Notes under the pieces: model-generated
Databases searched by the model: none
The model's input: the letters and a program-made list of their open reading frames with translations, nothing else
What the model was told of the DNA's origin: nothing
Translations under genes and position numbers: made by a program
Virus record (IMG/VR): IMGVR_UViG_3300042864_000637
Span: 1 to 32,375 of that record
Reading direction: 5' to 3' (one strand)
Source of the DNA: a virus
DNA length: 32,375 bases
Part shown: positions 2 to 8,953 of the stretch, piece by piece
Numbering within the stretch: the first letter of the stretch is position 1
How the letters are laid out: the number at the start of each line of letters is the position of its first letter

Positions 2-598
2 GCTGGCGGCGTCGGCGCCTTTGCGGCCATGGGCCGGATCTACGGCATCAACCTGCCCGAGAGCGAGGCCAGGAAGATGGTGGACGCCTGGCGGCGGGCG
101 AACTCCTGGTCGGTGCCGTTCTGGCAGGGGCTGGAGGAGGCATACACGCGGGCGATACGGAACCGCGGGCATGAGTTCACCGCCGGACGCATCACTTATT
201 TGTTCGACGGCCAGCATCTTTGGTATGCTCTGCCTTCCGGCCGCGTCCTCTGTTATCCCTTCGCGCGGCTTGAGCCCGAGGGCGTCACCTATGCGAAAGC
301 CTCCTGGAAGCCCGCCGCGGACGCGACAGAGTGGCCCCGCGCGCGGCTCTGGAAGGGGCTCGCGTGCGAGAACGTGACCCAGGCCACCGCGCATGATCTG
401 CTTCGTCACGCCCTGCGCCAGCTAGAGGCCGAGGGTCACGACGTCGTGCTGCACGTCCATGACGAGGTGGTGGTCGAGACGAACGACCCGGAGGCGGCGC
501 AGGCCGCCATGCAGCGCATCATGTGTTCACCTCCAGCCTGGGCGGCAGGGATACCGCTCAACATCGAGGCTGCGGTGATGACACGCTACGGTAAATAG
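2..598 (+). CDS. DNA polymerase, family A, C-terminal part (cut by window edge)
   Basis: The reading frame is open to the left edge, so this is the last 198 residues of a longer protein. It begins within the family A motif B region (residues AGGVGAFAAMGRIYG, the glycine-rich end of the fingers O-helix). It ends with the palm motif C, VHDEVVVE, whose Asp-Glu pair binds catalytic metal. The stretch ENVTQATAHDLLRHAL just before motif C is also typical of phage polymerases. The product would replicate phage DNA. The stop at 598 is followed closely by the primase-helicase gene, so the two probably form one replication operon. An internal ATG at 29 is in frame but lies inside the conserved O-helix, so it is not the true start. 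The 3'-5' exonuclease domain, if present, lies outside the window. Confidence 0.93.
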   Translation, partial: AGGVGAFAAMGRIYGINLPESEARKMVDAWRRANSWSVPFWQGLEEAYTRAIRNRGHEFTAGRITYLFDGQHLWYALPSGRVLCYPFARLEPEGVTYAKASWKPAADATEWPRARLWKGLACENVTQATAHDLLRHALRQLEAEGHDVVLHVHDEVVVETNDPEAAQAAMQRIMCSPPAWAAGIPLNIEAAVMTRYGK

Positions 599-606
599 GG
601 GAGAGG

Positions 607-2922
607 ATGATGGACTTCGTAGAGTTCCTGCAAGGGCTCGCGCCCAAGGGTGAGACGCTGTTGGTGGTGCGGCAGAAGGCGGTCATGCGAGACGGTCAGC
701 AGGCGCTGCACGCTGACGGCACGCTGAAGTATACTTGGCCCGCCTTCCTGCCGTCCAAGCGGCGGCACGACGGCGGATCGTGGTACGGCAACACCGGCTC
801 TTTCATCATCGACCGCTTCATGGACGGCCAGCCGTCAGCGGCGGCGGCCTGCTGCGAATACGTCCTGGTGATGATGCTCGACGACGTGGGGACGAAGGCG
901 AAGACGCCGCCCCTGCCGCCGACATGGATCATGCAGTCGAGCGAGGACTCGTTCCAGTGGGGCTACGCCTTCGCGGAGCAGCCGACCAAGGGCGAATTCA
1001 CCGCGGCCATGACGGCCATCGCAGAGGCCGGCTACACAGACCCTGGTGCGGTCAACGCCGTCCGCAACTTCCGACTGCCTGGGTCGGTTAACGTCAAGCC
1101 TGGCCGCGACGGCTTCAAGGCGCGGTTGGTCGAGTTCCACCCCGAACGCGAGTTCACTCTCCCGCAGATCTGCGAGGCCCTGGGCGTCACGCCAGCGGCG
1201 GCCGACACGGCGTCCCAGAGCGTCTTCCGCCTGCGCGACACGGGCAAGGACGCGGTGCTGGAGTGGCTGAACGAGCAGGGCCTCGTCCTGTCGGCGGCCA
1301 ACCAAGAGGGCTGGCTGGGCGTCGTCTGCCCGAACGCCGCCGAACACACGACCGGCCAGAATGAGGCTCGCTACAACCCGATCAACCGCGCCTTCTGCTG
1401 CTACCACGGCCACTGCGAGCATCTGGACAGCAAGGCGTTCTTGCAGTGGGTCTGCGACCAGGGCGGCCCCCGCGCTGGCCACGGCCTGCGGGACGAGCTG
1501 CTGGCGGAGCAGATGGCCCGCACCCTCGACAAGCTGACGCCGACCGAAAACTTCCCCGACCGCGCCGCCGAGATCATCGCAGAGGTGGACCGCAAGGAGC
1601 TGGGCCGGGTCGAGAAGGCGGGCTGGTACGAACGCTTCGCCTATGTTCTCTCGGACGACTGCTATTTCGACTTGGAGGACCGGCGGGAGATCAGCCGCAA
1701 CGCCTTCAACGCGCTGTTCCGCCACATCCCCTGCCGGTCCATCCACAGCGGCAAGAAGATCGAGGCGTCCACCTGCTACGACGAGAACCGCCAGGCGATG
1801 GGCGCCCGCGTCCTGGTGGGCGTGACCTACGCCGCCGGCGAGAGCGTGCTGGTGTCGCGCAACGCCGAGGTCTACGGCAACCGCTGGGTCAACGCCCGTC
1901 CCGACGTGTCGAAGTCGCCTAGCGGCGATGTGACGCGCTGGCTCGACCATTGCCGCCGGCTGGTGCCGGATCCGCGCGACCTTGATCACATCTGGGACGT
2001 GATGGCGTTCAAGGTCCAGAACCCGCGCGTGAAGATCAACCACGCGATCCTCCACGGCGGCCACGGCGGCAGCGGCAAGGATACGATGTGGGCGCCGTTC
2101 ATGTGGGCGGTCTGCGGCCCGACGCTGGTGAACCGCGGCCTCATCGACGGCGACACGATCAACAGCCAGTGGGGTTACGCGCTGGAGAGCGAAGTCATCC
2201 TTCTGAACGAACTGAAGGAGCCGGAGGCGCGGGAGCGCCGGGCGCTGGCGAACCGGCTGAAGCCGATCATCGCCGCCCCGCCGGAATACTTGGTTGTGAA
2301 CCGCAAGGGCCTGCACCCTTACGACACCCTCAACCGCGCCTTCGTCCTGGCGTTCTCCAACGACATGATCCCGCTCACGCTGTCGAGCGATGACCGGCGT
2401 TGGTTTGTGATCTGGTCCACGGCGACCCGCATGGATCCGAAGGAAGCGTTGGCGATGTGGCGCTGGTACAAGGATGAAGGCGGCTTTGCTACCATCGCCC
2501 GCTGGCTGTACGCCCGCGACGTGTCGGCGTTCAATCCTGGCGCGGCGCCGCCCATGACGGACGTGAAGACGTCGCTGGTCGAGCATAGCATGAGCATGGC
2601 CGAGAGCGTCATCGTCGAGCTGGTGCGGGGGCGGCGGGGTGAGTTCGCCCGCGGCGTGATCGGCGGGCCGTTCCACGCGATCTGCGATCGCCTCCAGGCG
2701 GTGATGCCGTCGGGTGCGAAGGTGCCGCCCGCGGCGCTGCTGCACGCGATCCAAGAGGCCGGCTGGGTGGATATCGGGCGGGTGGACTCGGGAGAGTACA
2801 GGACGAAGAAGCACATATTCGCCGCGCCTGAGCTTGCGCGGGCTCTCAGCAAGAGCGACCTTCGGCGCATGATCGAGGAGCCCTCGGCGCCGAAGGTCGT
2901 GGATCTTAAAGTCGTGGGGTGA
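607..2922 (+). CDS. Phage primase-helicase (AEP/RepB-type primase plus SF3/D5-like helicase, DUF5906)
   Basis: A 771-residue two-part replication protein. The N-terminal ~200 residues look like an archaeo-eukaryotic-type (RepB-like) primase: an acidic strand MMLDDVG, then WIMQSSEDSFQWGYAF and NFRLPGSVNVKPG. A Cys/His-rich linker around residues 240-270 ends in FCCYHGHCEH and is likely zinc-binding. The C-terminal half is a superfamily 3/D5-type helicase. It has Walker A GGHGGSGKDT (K491), an acidic strand LLNELKEPE near 533-541, a sensor strand LAFSND (N585) and an arginine-finger segment SSDDRRWFVI (R597/R598). It would prime and unwind DNA for the neighbouring polymerase. Two ATGs lie in tandem at 607 and 610 behind a GGGGAGAGG ribosome site, and the second has the better spacing. 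The 3' end overlaps the convergent gene that ends at 2906 by 17 bases. The primase subfamily assignment is less certain than the helicase. Confidence 0.88.
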   Translation: MMDFVEFLQGLAPKGETLLVVRQKAVMRDGQQALHADGTLKYTWPAFLPSKRRHDGGSWYGNTGSFIIDRFMDGQPSAAAACCEYVLVMMLDDVGTKAKTPPLPPTWIMQSSEDSFQWGYAFAEQPTKGEFTAAMTAIAEAGYTDPGAVNAVRNFRLPGSVNVKPGRDGFKARLVEFHPEREFTLPQICEALGVTPAAADTASQSVFRLRDTGKDAVLEWLNEQGLVLSAANQEGWLGVVCPNAAEHTTGQNEARYNPINRAFCCYHGHCEHLDSKAFLQWVCDQGGPRAGHGLRDELLAEQMARTLDKLTPTENFPDRAAEIIAEVDRKELGRVEKAGWYERFAYVLSDDCYFDLEDRREISRNAFNALFRHIPCRSIHSGKKIEASTCYDENRQAMGARVLVGVTYAAGESVLVSRNAEVYGNRWVNARPDVSKSPSGDVTRWLDHCRRLVPDPRDLDHIWDVMAFKVQNPRVKINHAILHGGHGGSGKDTMWAPFMWAVCGPTLVNRGLIDGDTINSQWGYALESEVILLNELKEPEARERRALANRLKPIIAAPPEYLVVNRKGLHPYDTLNRAFVLAFSNDMIPLTLSSDDRRWFVIWSTATRMDPKEALAMWRWYKDEGGFATIARWLYARDVSAFNPGAAPPMTDVKTSLVEHSMSMAESVIVELVRGRRGEFARGVIGGPFHAICDRLQAVMPSGAKVPPAALLHAIQEAGWVDIGRVDSGEYRTKKHIFAAPELARALSKSDLRRMIEEPSAPKVVDLKVVG

Positions 2923-3574: not shown

Positions 3575-3877
3575 TCACGCGCTGGCGATCTCGCGCACCA
3601 GCCGAGCGCCGGCGGGTGTCGCGGTCAGCTCGACCAAACGGCGGTCCATCATGGAGACGCGGCGCTTCAACAGGCCCAGCTCGACCAACTTGTCGGCGGT
3701 GCGCGTGACGACAGGCGCCGACACGCCCAGCGTGCGCGCCAAGATCTTGTTACTCTCGCCGGGGTACTCAGCCACCAGGGCCAGTATGGCGATCTGGCGG
3801 CAGGTCATGTTGGCGTCAGGCTGCGAGGCCAGAATGAACGCCTGCGCCTCGGGCGGGATGGTTAGGATGTCGGTCAT
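3575..3877 (-). CDS. MarR-like winged-helix transcriptional regulator
   Basis: A 100-residue protein whose core matches the MarR winged-helix fold. Helix MTCRQIAILALVAEYP is at about residues 24-39. The helix-turn-helix NKILARTLGVSAPVVTRTADKLVELGLLKR lies at about 43-72. The wing RVSMMDRRLVELTATPAG (about 73-90) has the paired basic residues expected at the DNA backbone. It is shorter than the usual 140-150 residues because the N- and C-terminal dimerisation helices are largely missing. The ATG at 3877 is preceded by GAAGGGA, and an in-frame start further up adds only unrelated sequence. It could bind operators in the phage genome or act on host genes. The palindromes at 8633-8817 are one possible target, but this is inference. 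Confidence 0.8.
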   Translation of the reverse strand: MTDILTIPPEAQAFILASQPDANMTCRQIAILALVAEYPGESNKILARTLGVSAPVVTRTADKLVELGLLKRRVSMMDRRLVELTATPAGARLVREIASA

Positions 3878-3891
3878 GTTGTGTCGTCCCT

Positions 3892-4200
3892 TCACGTTGT
3901 TGCGTATCTGCACGGGGCGCACAGTCGGTTATGCGCCCCCTCGCTGTCAAAGGTTTTCTTGCACCGCAGGCAAGCCCGCGGGGTAGTGTTGGGCTTCACG
4001 TCCAGCGGACGCTTCAGCCGGGCGCGGAATTGCGCTTGCGCTTGCGCCGTGCGGGTCTGGCTGGCCCACCAAGCGCTTAGGCCCTTGGCGGTGATGTTCC
4101 CTACCTCCTCGGCCAGTTGGTCCCATGTCCGGCCCTGCTGGCGGCCCTGCGTGACGATCTCCAGCCGCCGGGCGATGAAGTCACTAGCGTGGACCGGCAT
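3892..4200 (-). CDS. Putative DNA-binding protein: helix-turn-helix plus C-terminal zinc ribbon
   Basis: A 102-residue protein. The start at 4200 is set by a TGATG overlap with the preceding stop, and the longer frame upstream is Arg/His-rich antisense-like sequence. The N-terminal half (about residues 7-48) has a helix-turn-helix-like pattern, with TWDQLAEEVG followed by AKGLSAWWASQ. The C-terminus holds four cysteines in a zinc-ribbon arrangement, C77-x2-C80 and C94-x2-C97, in the context FDSEGAHNRLC. That Cys arrangement is common at the C-termini of small alphaproteobacterial and phage proteins. The layout recalls GcrA-like proteins, but I do not claim that identity. With the MarR-like gene just downstream, this part of the early region looks regulatory. 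Confidence 0.68.
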   Translation of the reverse strand: MPVHASDFIARRLEIVTQGRQQGRTWDQLAEEVGNITAKGLSAWWASQTRTAQAQAQFRARLKRPLDVKPNTTPRACLRCKKTFDSEGAHNRLCAPCRYATT

Positions 4201-7559: not shown

Positions 7560-8297
7560 CTATGCGGCCACCCGGACCACAAAGCCAGACGTGTCGCGGC
7601 GGGCCTTTGCACCCTTCGGCGTGAGCCCGACAATGGTGCCGCGCGGGTCTAGGTGGCGAAGGTCGTGCGCGTCCCCGTCGATAACGCGCATGCCGTTCCA
7701 CATGGCGGGGACGCGATCGAAGACGACGGCCGCATTGCCACCTTGCGCCACGATATCCGCGACAGTCGCGTCGTTTTCTTCGTTGCGCGACAGTGTGAGG
7801 TGGTAATTAGCGGGCAGCGCGCGCCGCATGCGGCTCGCGATTTTGGTGTAATCCACGAATTGGATATGAGGGAACGCGTCCATAAGGTTGCGGTACCGCA
7901 CGCCCGCGCGCTCGCAGGCAATGCCTTCCCACGCGATATCCGTGGATCCGTTCATACGGACGCAAAGGCGCAGCCCCATGCGGGTCGCCTTGTGTTCGGC
8001 TAGCTCAATCGACCGGACCACATCGGCCATGTAGGCCGCGCGGTCACGCATGAACCGGCGCGCCTTATCAATGCGAGACTGGCGCACGGAATTGATATCC
8101 GTATCTCGCGCGACCATGGAGGCCTGCCCGCTATACCAGCCAAGGCATGCGGCGCGGCAGCCTGCGGTTGCCTTCGGGCAGAGATCTCCCACGCCCGCAA
8201 CGCTGGCGGGCGCCATGTAGTGGATGGCGTTAAGGTATCCGTAGCCTTGCGCCTTGATGGCCTTCGCGCTGTCGACGCTAAAGATTGTGTTTTGCAT
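7560..8297 (-). CDS. GP88-family phage protein (radical-SAM-like features)
   Basis: A 245-residue protein from the ATG at 8297. A further 30 upstream codons are in frame but run into the promoter region. It matches my recollection of the phage 'gene product 88' family (first named in mycobacteriophages): an N-terminal Cys cluster LCPKATAGCRAACLGWYSG (C40, C47, C51), then NSVRQSRIDKARRF and MNGSTDIAWEG. Alternating beta/alpha segments follow (IQFVDYTKI, YHLTLSRNEEND, NAAVVFDR, GTIVGLTPKG). The three clustered cysteines, then a strand-TK-R pattern and a strand ending in SRNEEN, resemble Fe-S radical-SAM-like phage proteins such as DUF5131, so an Fe-S enzyme is possible. That is inference; the family has no established function that I know. 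It is the first gene of the leftward unit and has its own promoter. Confidence 0.75.
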   Translation of the reverse strand: MQNTIFSVDSAKAIKAQGYGYLNAIHYMAPASVAGVGDLCPKATAGCRAACLGWYSGQASMVARDTDINSVRQSRIDKARRFMRDRAAYMADVVRSIELAEHKATRMGLRLCVRMNGSTDIAWEGIACERAGVRYRNLMDAFPHIQFVDYTKIASRMRRALPANYHLTLSRNEENDATVADIVAQGGNAAVVFDRVPAMWNGMRVIDGDAHDLRHLDPRGTIVGLTPKGAKARRDTSGFVVRVAA

Positions 8298-8313
8298 GGT
8301 CCGACTGTCCCTA

Positions 8314-8328
8314 ATCGGTTGCGACAAG
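8314..8328 (-). repeat. 15-bp leader repeat, copy 2 (other copy 7499-7513)
   Basis: Identical to 7499-7513. It lies between the candidate -10 (8334-8339) and the GP88 start codon at 8297. Confidence 0.6.
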
Positions 8329-8333
8329 AGAAG

Positions 8334-8361
8334 CGTATAAGCCACTTCGCAGCCGATGCAA
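8334..8361 (-). promoter_or_regulatory. Sigma70-type leftward promoter of the GP88 gene
   Basis: On the minus strand TTGCAT (8356-8361), 16 bases, TATACG (8334-8339). It would start the whole leftward unit from the edge of the repeat-rich intergenic region. Confidence 0.45.
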
Positions 8362-8560
8362 CAGAAAATGTAGCGCCAGATGCACATTTTTTCCGACGCC
8401 AGGCGGGCTAGGATTTTATTCTAGCCTAGCGCGGGATTTCGGCGGTTTGCGTGGCGGTTTCGGTAGGGCGGTGCGGCGGCTAAACCGCCGAACTGCCGAA
8501 GCAAAAAGCGCCGCTATGTCAACGCGGTAACGCGGGCTTTCGGCGGTTTCGGTAGTGCTG

Positions 8561-8615
8561 TTGTTATATTGTTTAGATATAGTAGGTATATATACCTATA
8601 GTATATTATAGGTTT
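8561..8615. repeat. AT-rich island of overlapping palindromes
   Basis: About 55 bases almost without G/C in a GC-rich genome. TAGGTATATATACCTA (8583-8598) is a perfect 16-bp palindrome. It overlaps CCTATA-N6-TATAGG (8595-8612). It could serve as a DNA-unwinding element or hold promoter -10 elements. Repeat elements flank it on both sides, in opposite orientations. Confidence 0.6.
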
Positions 8616-8632
8616 AGGGGTCTGCTAACATT

Positions 8633-8817
8633 TTCGGCACTGCCGAAACTGCCGAACTGCCGAAACCCGCTCGCCCTCGACGCCACACCGCCGCATCCTG
8701 CCCGCGCCAGTGCCATGTCTCTGCTCGACGTCGTTCGGCATAGCCGAAACTGCCGAACACTGCCGAACGCTGAATGTCTCGGCTTGATCGCTTTCGGCAT
8801 TGCCGAAACTGCCGAAC
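8633..8817 (+). repeat. Three copies of a 25-bp palindrome-plus-direct-repeat element
   Basis: Copies at 8633-8657, 8734-8758 and 8793-8817 each read TTCGGCA, two variable bases, then GCCGAAACTGCCGAAC. All 23 fixed bases are identical. Each holds an inverted repeat (TTCGGC/GCCGAA) and a second GCCGAA half-site one turn away. Extra TGCCGAA half-sites follow copies 1 (8658) and 2 (about 8761). Start-to-start spacing is 101 and 59 bases. These look like binding sites for a dimeric protein. Confidence 0.8.
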
Positions 8818-8892: not shown

Positions 8893-8953
8893 TGCAATAG
8901 ATTGTATGGCGTATACAGTCAGCCCGCGGCCCATTGCCTGTAATAGATTGTAT
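8893..8953 (+). promoter_or_regulatory. Paired 15-bp direct repeats with a TATAAT; possible late promoter
   Basis: TG[CT]AATAGATTGTAT occurs at 8893-8907 and 8939-8953, 46 bases apart. The second copy runs into a perfect TATAAT (8951-8956) on the strand of the late genes. No good -35 hexamer stands 16-18 bases upstream. An activator-dependent promoter is possible, with the repeats as activator sites. Confidence 0.4.

Follow-up and report, generated by a model that had tools for sequence, protein, structure and literature searches.

The locus and its repeat array

The window analysed here, one complete IMG/VR record of 32,375 bases, looks like the genome of a freshwater-type phage within a large group of uncultivated phages. 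It carries a family A DNA polymerase gene, a primase-helicase gene and a set of leftward genes that includes those of a MarR-like protein and GP88. Between these leftward genes and terS lies an array of short repeats, and terS is followed on the right by terL, a P22-type portal gene and other structural genes (Table 1). The primase-helicase gene is about 5.5 kb away from the array. Two copies of a short word, TG(C/T)AATAGATTGTAT, are found between array and terS (8893-8907 and 8939-8953), with similar words in L089, L096 and L099 (L numbers denote the loci compared); they are perhaps a promoter or operator.

Table 1. Coordinates of genes and sequence features in the window
Feature	Position	Strand	Details and basis
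Family A DNA polymerase, end of gene	2-598		
Primase-helicase, 771 aa, DUF5906	607-2922	+	Predicted parts: AEP-like N-terminal region, Cys/His cluster of zinc-binding type, SF3-type helicase, C-terminal winged helix
Walker A of the SF3-type helicase	2056-2082		GGHGGSGKD
Predicted winged-helix region, residues 684-740	2656-2826	+	AlphaFold2, pLDDT about 80-94 across the stretch
Wing, residues 724-738	2776-2820	+	GRVDSGEYRTKKHIF; covariation
Covarying wing residues	2785-2787, 2791-2793, 2800-2802		D727, G729, R732
MarR-like protein	3575-3922		Among the leftward small genes; HTH domain
GP88	7560-8387		Leftward gene
Left arm, outer iterons, inverted	8438-8465	-	TTCGGC at 8438, degenerate TTTCGGTA at 8458; sequence, and relatives with inverted iterons on this side
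Left arm, direct half-sites	8482-8502	+	AAACCGCCGAACTGCCGAA; half-sites at 8487 and 8495, 8-bp pitch
Left arm, inner tandem pair	8538-8555	-	TTTCGGCGGTTTCGGTA, adjoins the AT-rich island; sequence
AT-rich island, putative DNA unwinding element	8555-8620	strandless	Palindromic GGTATATATACC; sequence
Right arm, element 1	8632-8665	+	Inverted unit 8633; direct units 8642, 8651, 8659
Right arm, element 2	8733-8768	+	Inverted unit 8734; direct units 8743, 8752, 8762
Right arm, element 3	8792-8817	+	Inverted unit 8793; direct units 8802, 8811
terS	9105 (start)		About 290 bp downstream of the array

An earlier note on this DNA had described three 25-bp elements, each a palindrome plus an extra half-site. 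The elements are real: TTCGGCANNGCCGAAACTGCCGAAC occurs on the plus strand at 8633, 8734 and 8793 and nowhere else in the record, even when three mismatches are allowed, and 100 shuffles gave an expected count of 0. They are better described as one inverted and two or three direct units at a pitch of 8-10 bp, mostly 9 bp, and they form parts of a 9-bp iteron array with the core GCCGAA that flanks an AT-rich island on both sides. The additional half-sites that had been claimed after the first two copies are present (GCCGAA at 8659 and 8762), as are the diverged copies to the left of the island (about 8555-8620). Their proposed opposite orientation holds for 8437-8466 and 8539-8556; the pair at 8487/8495 is direct, so that the copy at 8485-8502 (GCCGAACTGCCGAA) is oriented like the right arm. 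The hexamer GCCGAA/TTCGGC occurs 15 times within 8438-8817 and is scattered elsewhere in the window, but pairs of half-sites at 8-10 bp spacing are almost confined to the array, and just two isolated pairs with 8-bp spacing lie outside it. Short repeats at a regular 9-bp pitch with an adjoining AT-rich stretch are what is expected of an iteron origin. GC skew, which had been suggested as a check for an origin, shows no turning point at the array and lends support neither way.

Layout and letters of the array among relatives

Named relatives of the window phage are few, namely MW202483 (TerL 80%) and phage DSL-LC05 (TerL 70%), both environmental genomes (PMC10611076), and a nucleotide search with the array region matched no named phage. 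Bacterial contigs with close TerL relatives come from metagenome bins of Rhodoferax and of further lineages, most of them beta- or gammaproteobacteria, a weak hint that such bacteria may be the hosts. In total, we gathered 379 sequences, of which 249 contain both the primase and the intergenic region; 169 of these are non-redundant and 147 have firm iteron calls. The genomes are related to each other and fragmentary. Iteron calling imposes the pattern R[CT][CTG]NAN, and some calls are wrong, for example in L029 and L180. Earlier iteron patterns (TGNCNNAN) and an uncorrected hexamer call mis-assigned some classes because of reverse-complement ambiguity and a second CACTAAC repeat; they were superseded, and the result was then checked without any pattern.

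The search for the motif in relatives had been set by the earlier note as a refuting test, and its outcome is twofold: the exact motif is absent outside the nearest relatives, TTCGGCANNGCCGAA being kept only by near-identical genomes among 80 TerL relatives, while an array with other letters is present at the same place. Among the 59 TerL-related sequences with enough upstream DNA (window included), lag 9 is by far the most frequent spacing of repeated 6-mers in the intergenic region (773, vs 312 at lag 10, mostly fewer than 160 at other lags and about 14 after shuffling). The iteron letters include GCCGAA, GCCGAG, GCGGAG, GCCCAA, ACCTAG, ACCCAA and GTCCAC, with repeats such as TTGCCTAGATTACCTAG (L009), (TGACCTATT)n (L012), (GCCTAAATG)n (L022), ATGACCCAA (L031) and ATTGTCCAC (L036). 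Iterons differ from those of the window even at 90-95% primase identity, within a composite element of the same type (for example, L088 CTCGGCATGACCGAGACTGCCGAG, L093 TCTAGGCATGACCTAGACTACCTAG, L099 TTGGGCACTGCCCAAACCGCCCA and L089 CTCCGCACTGCGGAGATTACGGA).

The arrangement around the AT minimum is kept. Across the 147 genomes iterons are oppositely oriented on its two sides, mostly minus on the left (356 minus, 111 plus) and mostly plus on the right (659 plus, 191 minus), and the inverted pair beside the AT-rich island at the inner end of the left arm is found again in relatives. Start-to-start spacing is 9 bp in 379 cases, the next most frequent being 18 bp (72), and the 60 bp of the AT minimum have a mean GC content of 0.23. 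The array layout is family-wide, and the exact motif is limited to close relatives. In cultivated phages of Vibrio that have distant primases (MZH0603, 1.021.A), a comparable 9-bp array was not found in the intergenic stretches read.

The same region holds other repeats and insertions. In many relatives the iterons are followed on the right by a second repeat family, which is palindromic (GTTAGTG-NN-CACTAAC) and has no 9-bp pitch (L083:9170-9370; similar in L073, L078, L079 and L245-L312), and short tandem microsatellites with differing units occur between iterons and terS (L026:9400-9475, L018:2100-2190, L009:9332-9391, L029:9287-9350). MW202483 has a homing endonuclease gene between the repeat region and terS (L164:10712-11158). 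In phage DSL-LC05 the homologous intergenic region contains many palindromes of the TGACCCACTGGGT type (L165:3570-4000); its annotated primase-polymerase was not found using the window primase, and its replication module has possibly been replaced.

The primase wing and the iteron letters

The primase-helicase matches DUF5906 and phage primase families, and a sequence search finds the NrS-1 polymerase (E 4e-10). The full-length AlphaFold2 model (pLDDT 77.7, pTM 0.46) retrieves with Foldseek the NrS-1 CTR (6k9c, 5.6e-15), D5/E5, ASFV PrimPol and SaPI5 PriRep1 (7ola, 7pds); sequence, Foldseek and DUF5906 agree in relating its SF3 helicase to NrS-1 CTR/D5. The N-terminal region matches the AEP domain of S-2L PrimPol in Foldseek (6zp9, E 1.2e-5, TMt 0.67); a Pfam match to an AEP domain was not obtained at the sequence level, and family searches with the protein gave no TOPRIM match. 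The C-terminal end is the most variable part of the protein in sliding diversity. A model of residues 640-771 from 27 sequences (mean pLDDT 78.7) shows helices followed by a hairpin, in which residues 727-732 form the loop between two strands, that is, the hairpin tip or wing. Matches of this predicted winged helix in the PDB are weak and mostly to winged-helix proteins (best E 0.09), and because of this weakness we do not assign it to a named family. The origin-binding domain of P4 was not among the top 50 PDB structure matches of the model, and no sequence match to it was found.

The residues at this tip change together with the iteron. DSGEYRT goes with GCCGAA, DSSEYRT or DSTDHRT with GCCGAG, ESTDYRT with GCGGAG, ASSEYQT with GCCCAA, YSTDYLT with ACCTAG, GTVELMN with ACCTAT, ASGDFQS with ACCCAA and KSREFDS with GTCCAC. 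Normalised mutual information (MI) was computed for all 1278 primase and TerL columns in the 147 non-redundant genomes. For iteron position 6, residue 729 ranks first (0.51), followed by 727 and 732 (0.24 and 0.23), while the best non-wing column reaches 0.19 and the best TerL column 0.18. R729 is paired with C in 86 of 89 genomes, G729 with A in 25 of 26, and all four T729 genomes have G. At position 4 the top column is residue 727 (0.30), and residue 732 is paired without exception (G in all 7 genomes with R, C in all 19 with Q and in all 56 with D). When letters were permuted within 22 clades, defined by at least 85% identity over the N-terminal residues 1-660, none of 2000 permutations reached the observed value for any of the named residue-position pairs.

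An unsupervised scan, which imposes no iteron pattern and takes as input just those 6-mers that recur after 9 or 10 bp, leads to the same part of the protein. Given N-terminal distance, the partial correlation with protein distance is 0.48-0.56 for 13-residue windows starting at 717-727, with a peak over residues 717-740; before residue 700 it is at most 0.22, and 0 of 500 permutations reach the peak. In close pairs iteron similarity is 0.74 when the wings are identical and 0.18 when at least 3 of 13 wing residues differ. With one clade left out at a time, position 6 is correctly predicted from residue 729 in 121 of the 129 genomes whose residue had been seen before (baseline 89/147), and three loci found later in bacterial bins (L382, L384 and L389, the last weakly) have R729 and iterons ending in AC, as predicted for position 6. 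The code for position 4 is less secure, since in the same procedure prediction from a single column was no better than that from several non-wing columns. The pitch also tracks the wing: GR. at residues 724-726 goes with 9 bp (125, vs 0 at 10 bp), R725 being associated with 9 bp, and GLL or GMC goes with 10 bp (7 vs 0, in few genomes). That the motif letters change in step with a few primase amino acids in about 150 related phages points to the primase-helicase as the recognising protein.

Origin reading, alternatives and known systems

The earlier note had seen in the repeats binding sites for an initiator, a repressor or a packaging protein, and the repeat layout and the primase covariation favour the initiator. 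The primase-helicase was absent from its candidates, which do not follow the iterons in relatives. The MarR-like protein is only 60% identical in L094, which has the same iterons, and among 240 iteron-bearing genomes it was detected in 15. The zinc-ribbon protein (21/240) of L089, a phage with different iterons (GCGGAG), shows 100% identity to that of the window; that of L094, which has the same iterons (GCCGAA), shows 73%. TerS is universal, but none of its columns follows the letters of the iterons as closely as the primase wing. GP88 was likewise rejected as binder. A reading as DnaA boxes, which some classes resemble (TTGTCCACA), was set aside as well; a small DnaA-HTH-like protein went undetected in the window and in most genomes searched. 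Such a protein, leftward and annotated 'dnaa protein helix-turn-helix', is present in MW202483 (L164:7083-7379, minus strand), with relatives in L029, L113, L120-L124, L126, L134 and L137.

The repeats, their conserved layout, the changes of letters, the covariation with the wing and the winged-helix model, all observed by computation, argue that 8438-8817 is probably (roughly 0.8) the replication origin, read by the phage's own AEP-primase/SF3-helicase through its wing. In the mechanism that we infer, the wing tip of the C-terminal winged helix (residues 727, 729 and 732) would contact the variable iteron letters. The primase-helicase would bind the iterons in this way and oligomerise at the inner ones beside the AT-rich island, where the bound protomers would assemble the SF3 helicase and melt the island; once the island is open, priming would fall to the AEP domain.

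An alternative to the origin is that the array serves in packaging, as a pac/cosB-like site read by the small terminase. Small terminases bind repeats, the array lies just upstream of terS, and TerS is encoded by every one of the 147 genomes that have the array. However, the best TerS column has a normalised MI of 0.18 with position 6, vs 0.51 for primase residue 729, and 0.36 vs 0.45 for primase when the whole hexamer is considered; moreover, the TerS proteins of L089 and L098 are both 94.0% identical to that of the window although all three phages have different iterons, while L094 keeps the iterons with a TerS of 86.8% identity. We regard packaging as quite unlikely. That the repeats serve as operators through which a transcription regulator controls the divergent gene blocks would fit their place between these blocks and the HTH domain of the MarR-like protein, but the rarity of both candidate regulators and their behaviour in L089 and L094 make it very unlikely.

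Covariation indicates recognition rather than initiation, and the array is unmarked by GC skew; the winged helix of the primase might hence bind the repeats mainly for transcription regulation or copy control, with the origin elsewhere. We consider this unlikely, as repeats around an AT-rich island together with a helicase-primase reader are the usual make-up of an origin (PMC4234260, PMC7581432) and half-site pairs outside the array are limited to the two isolated ones. Finally, since the genomes are related and all columns carry some phylogenetic signal, wing and iteron might agree through shared ancestry or linkage only and make no contact. The within-clade permutations, the confinement of the partial correlation to the wing region and the variation, regardless of iteron, of the genes between array and primase render this highly improbable.

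The general scheme of the proposed origin is already known. According to two papers (PMC4234260, PMC10516667, citing Yeo 2002), gp-alpha of satellite phage P4 combines a primase, a helicase and a winged-helix domain that binds origin repeats. The window protein is predicted to have the same combination, but P4 has a TOPRIM primase in place of the AEP-like region, and homology to the P4 origin-binding domain was not detectable; furthermore, some 5.5 kb separate the window's gene from the array, whose letters differ between close relatives. In SaPI Rep and SCCmec Cch2 a self-loading helicase recognises iterons via its C-terminal domain, and PriRep1 has a fused AEP primase (PMC7581432); it is the SaPI5 PriRep1 structures that match our model. 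The SaPI origin lies directly downstream of rep, whereas the window array is distant from the primase gene and beside terS, and the window phage encodes a family A DNA polymerase of its own. NrS-1 primase-polymerase, the closest solved relative of the helicase part, primes depending on an 8-nt template sequence with two copies in the genome (PMC7102993), unlike the double-stranded iteron array and the predicted terminal winged helix here.

Matched change is also known: initiator residues or initiator type change together with iteron letters in the iteron-related domain of geminivirus Rep (PMC2974675) and in RepA/ori of the PLE satellites of Vibrio cholerae (PMC8263062). These initiators are unrelated and belong to other replication modes, while in the window the specificity is placed in the wing. 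RFX1-type winged helices recognise DNA by the wing and not by the recognition helix (PMC4333399), an analogy for which we claim no homology. The proposed system departs from the scheme of P4 and SaPI in its phage family, in the distance between gene and origin, in placing specificity in the wing and in how rapidly both partners change to match each other; in the open literature, an earlier report of matched initiator-iteron change in such phages was not found.

If the origin reading is right, an origin and its initiator would be assigned, from sequence alone, to a large group of uncultivated phages, and the natural series of matched protein-DNA pairs would allow the recognition code of a winged-helix wing to be read. 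It is an even bet that this uncultivated podophage-like family has kept one origin layout while repeatedly changing the address of its origin, with a few wing-tip residues forming a readable amino-acid-to-base code. Co-infecting relatives would then be unable to read one another's origins, and the pressure behind this may come from satellites or from nucleases that target origins, Odn among them. For the PLE satellites, a nuclease that requires iterons and escape through changes in the iteron region have been shown (PMC8263062). Why phage origins diversify would become testable, with incompatibility on co-infection, evasion of satellites and evasion of origin-targeting nucleases as possible causes.
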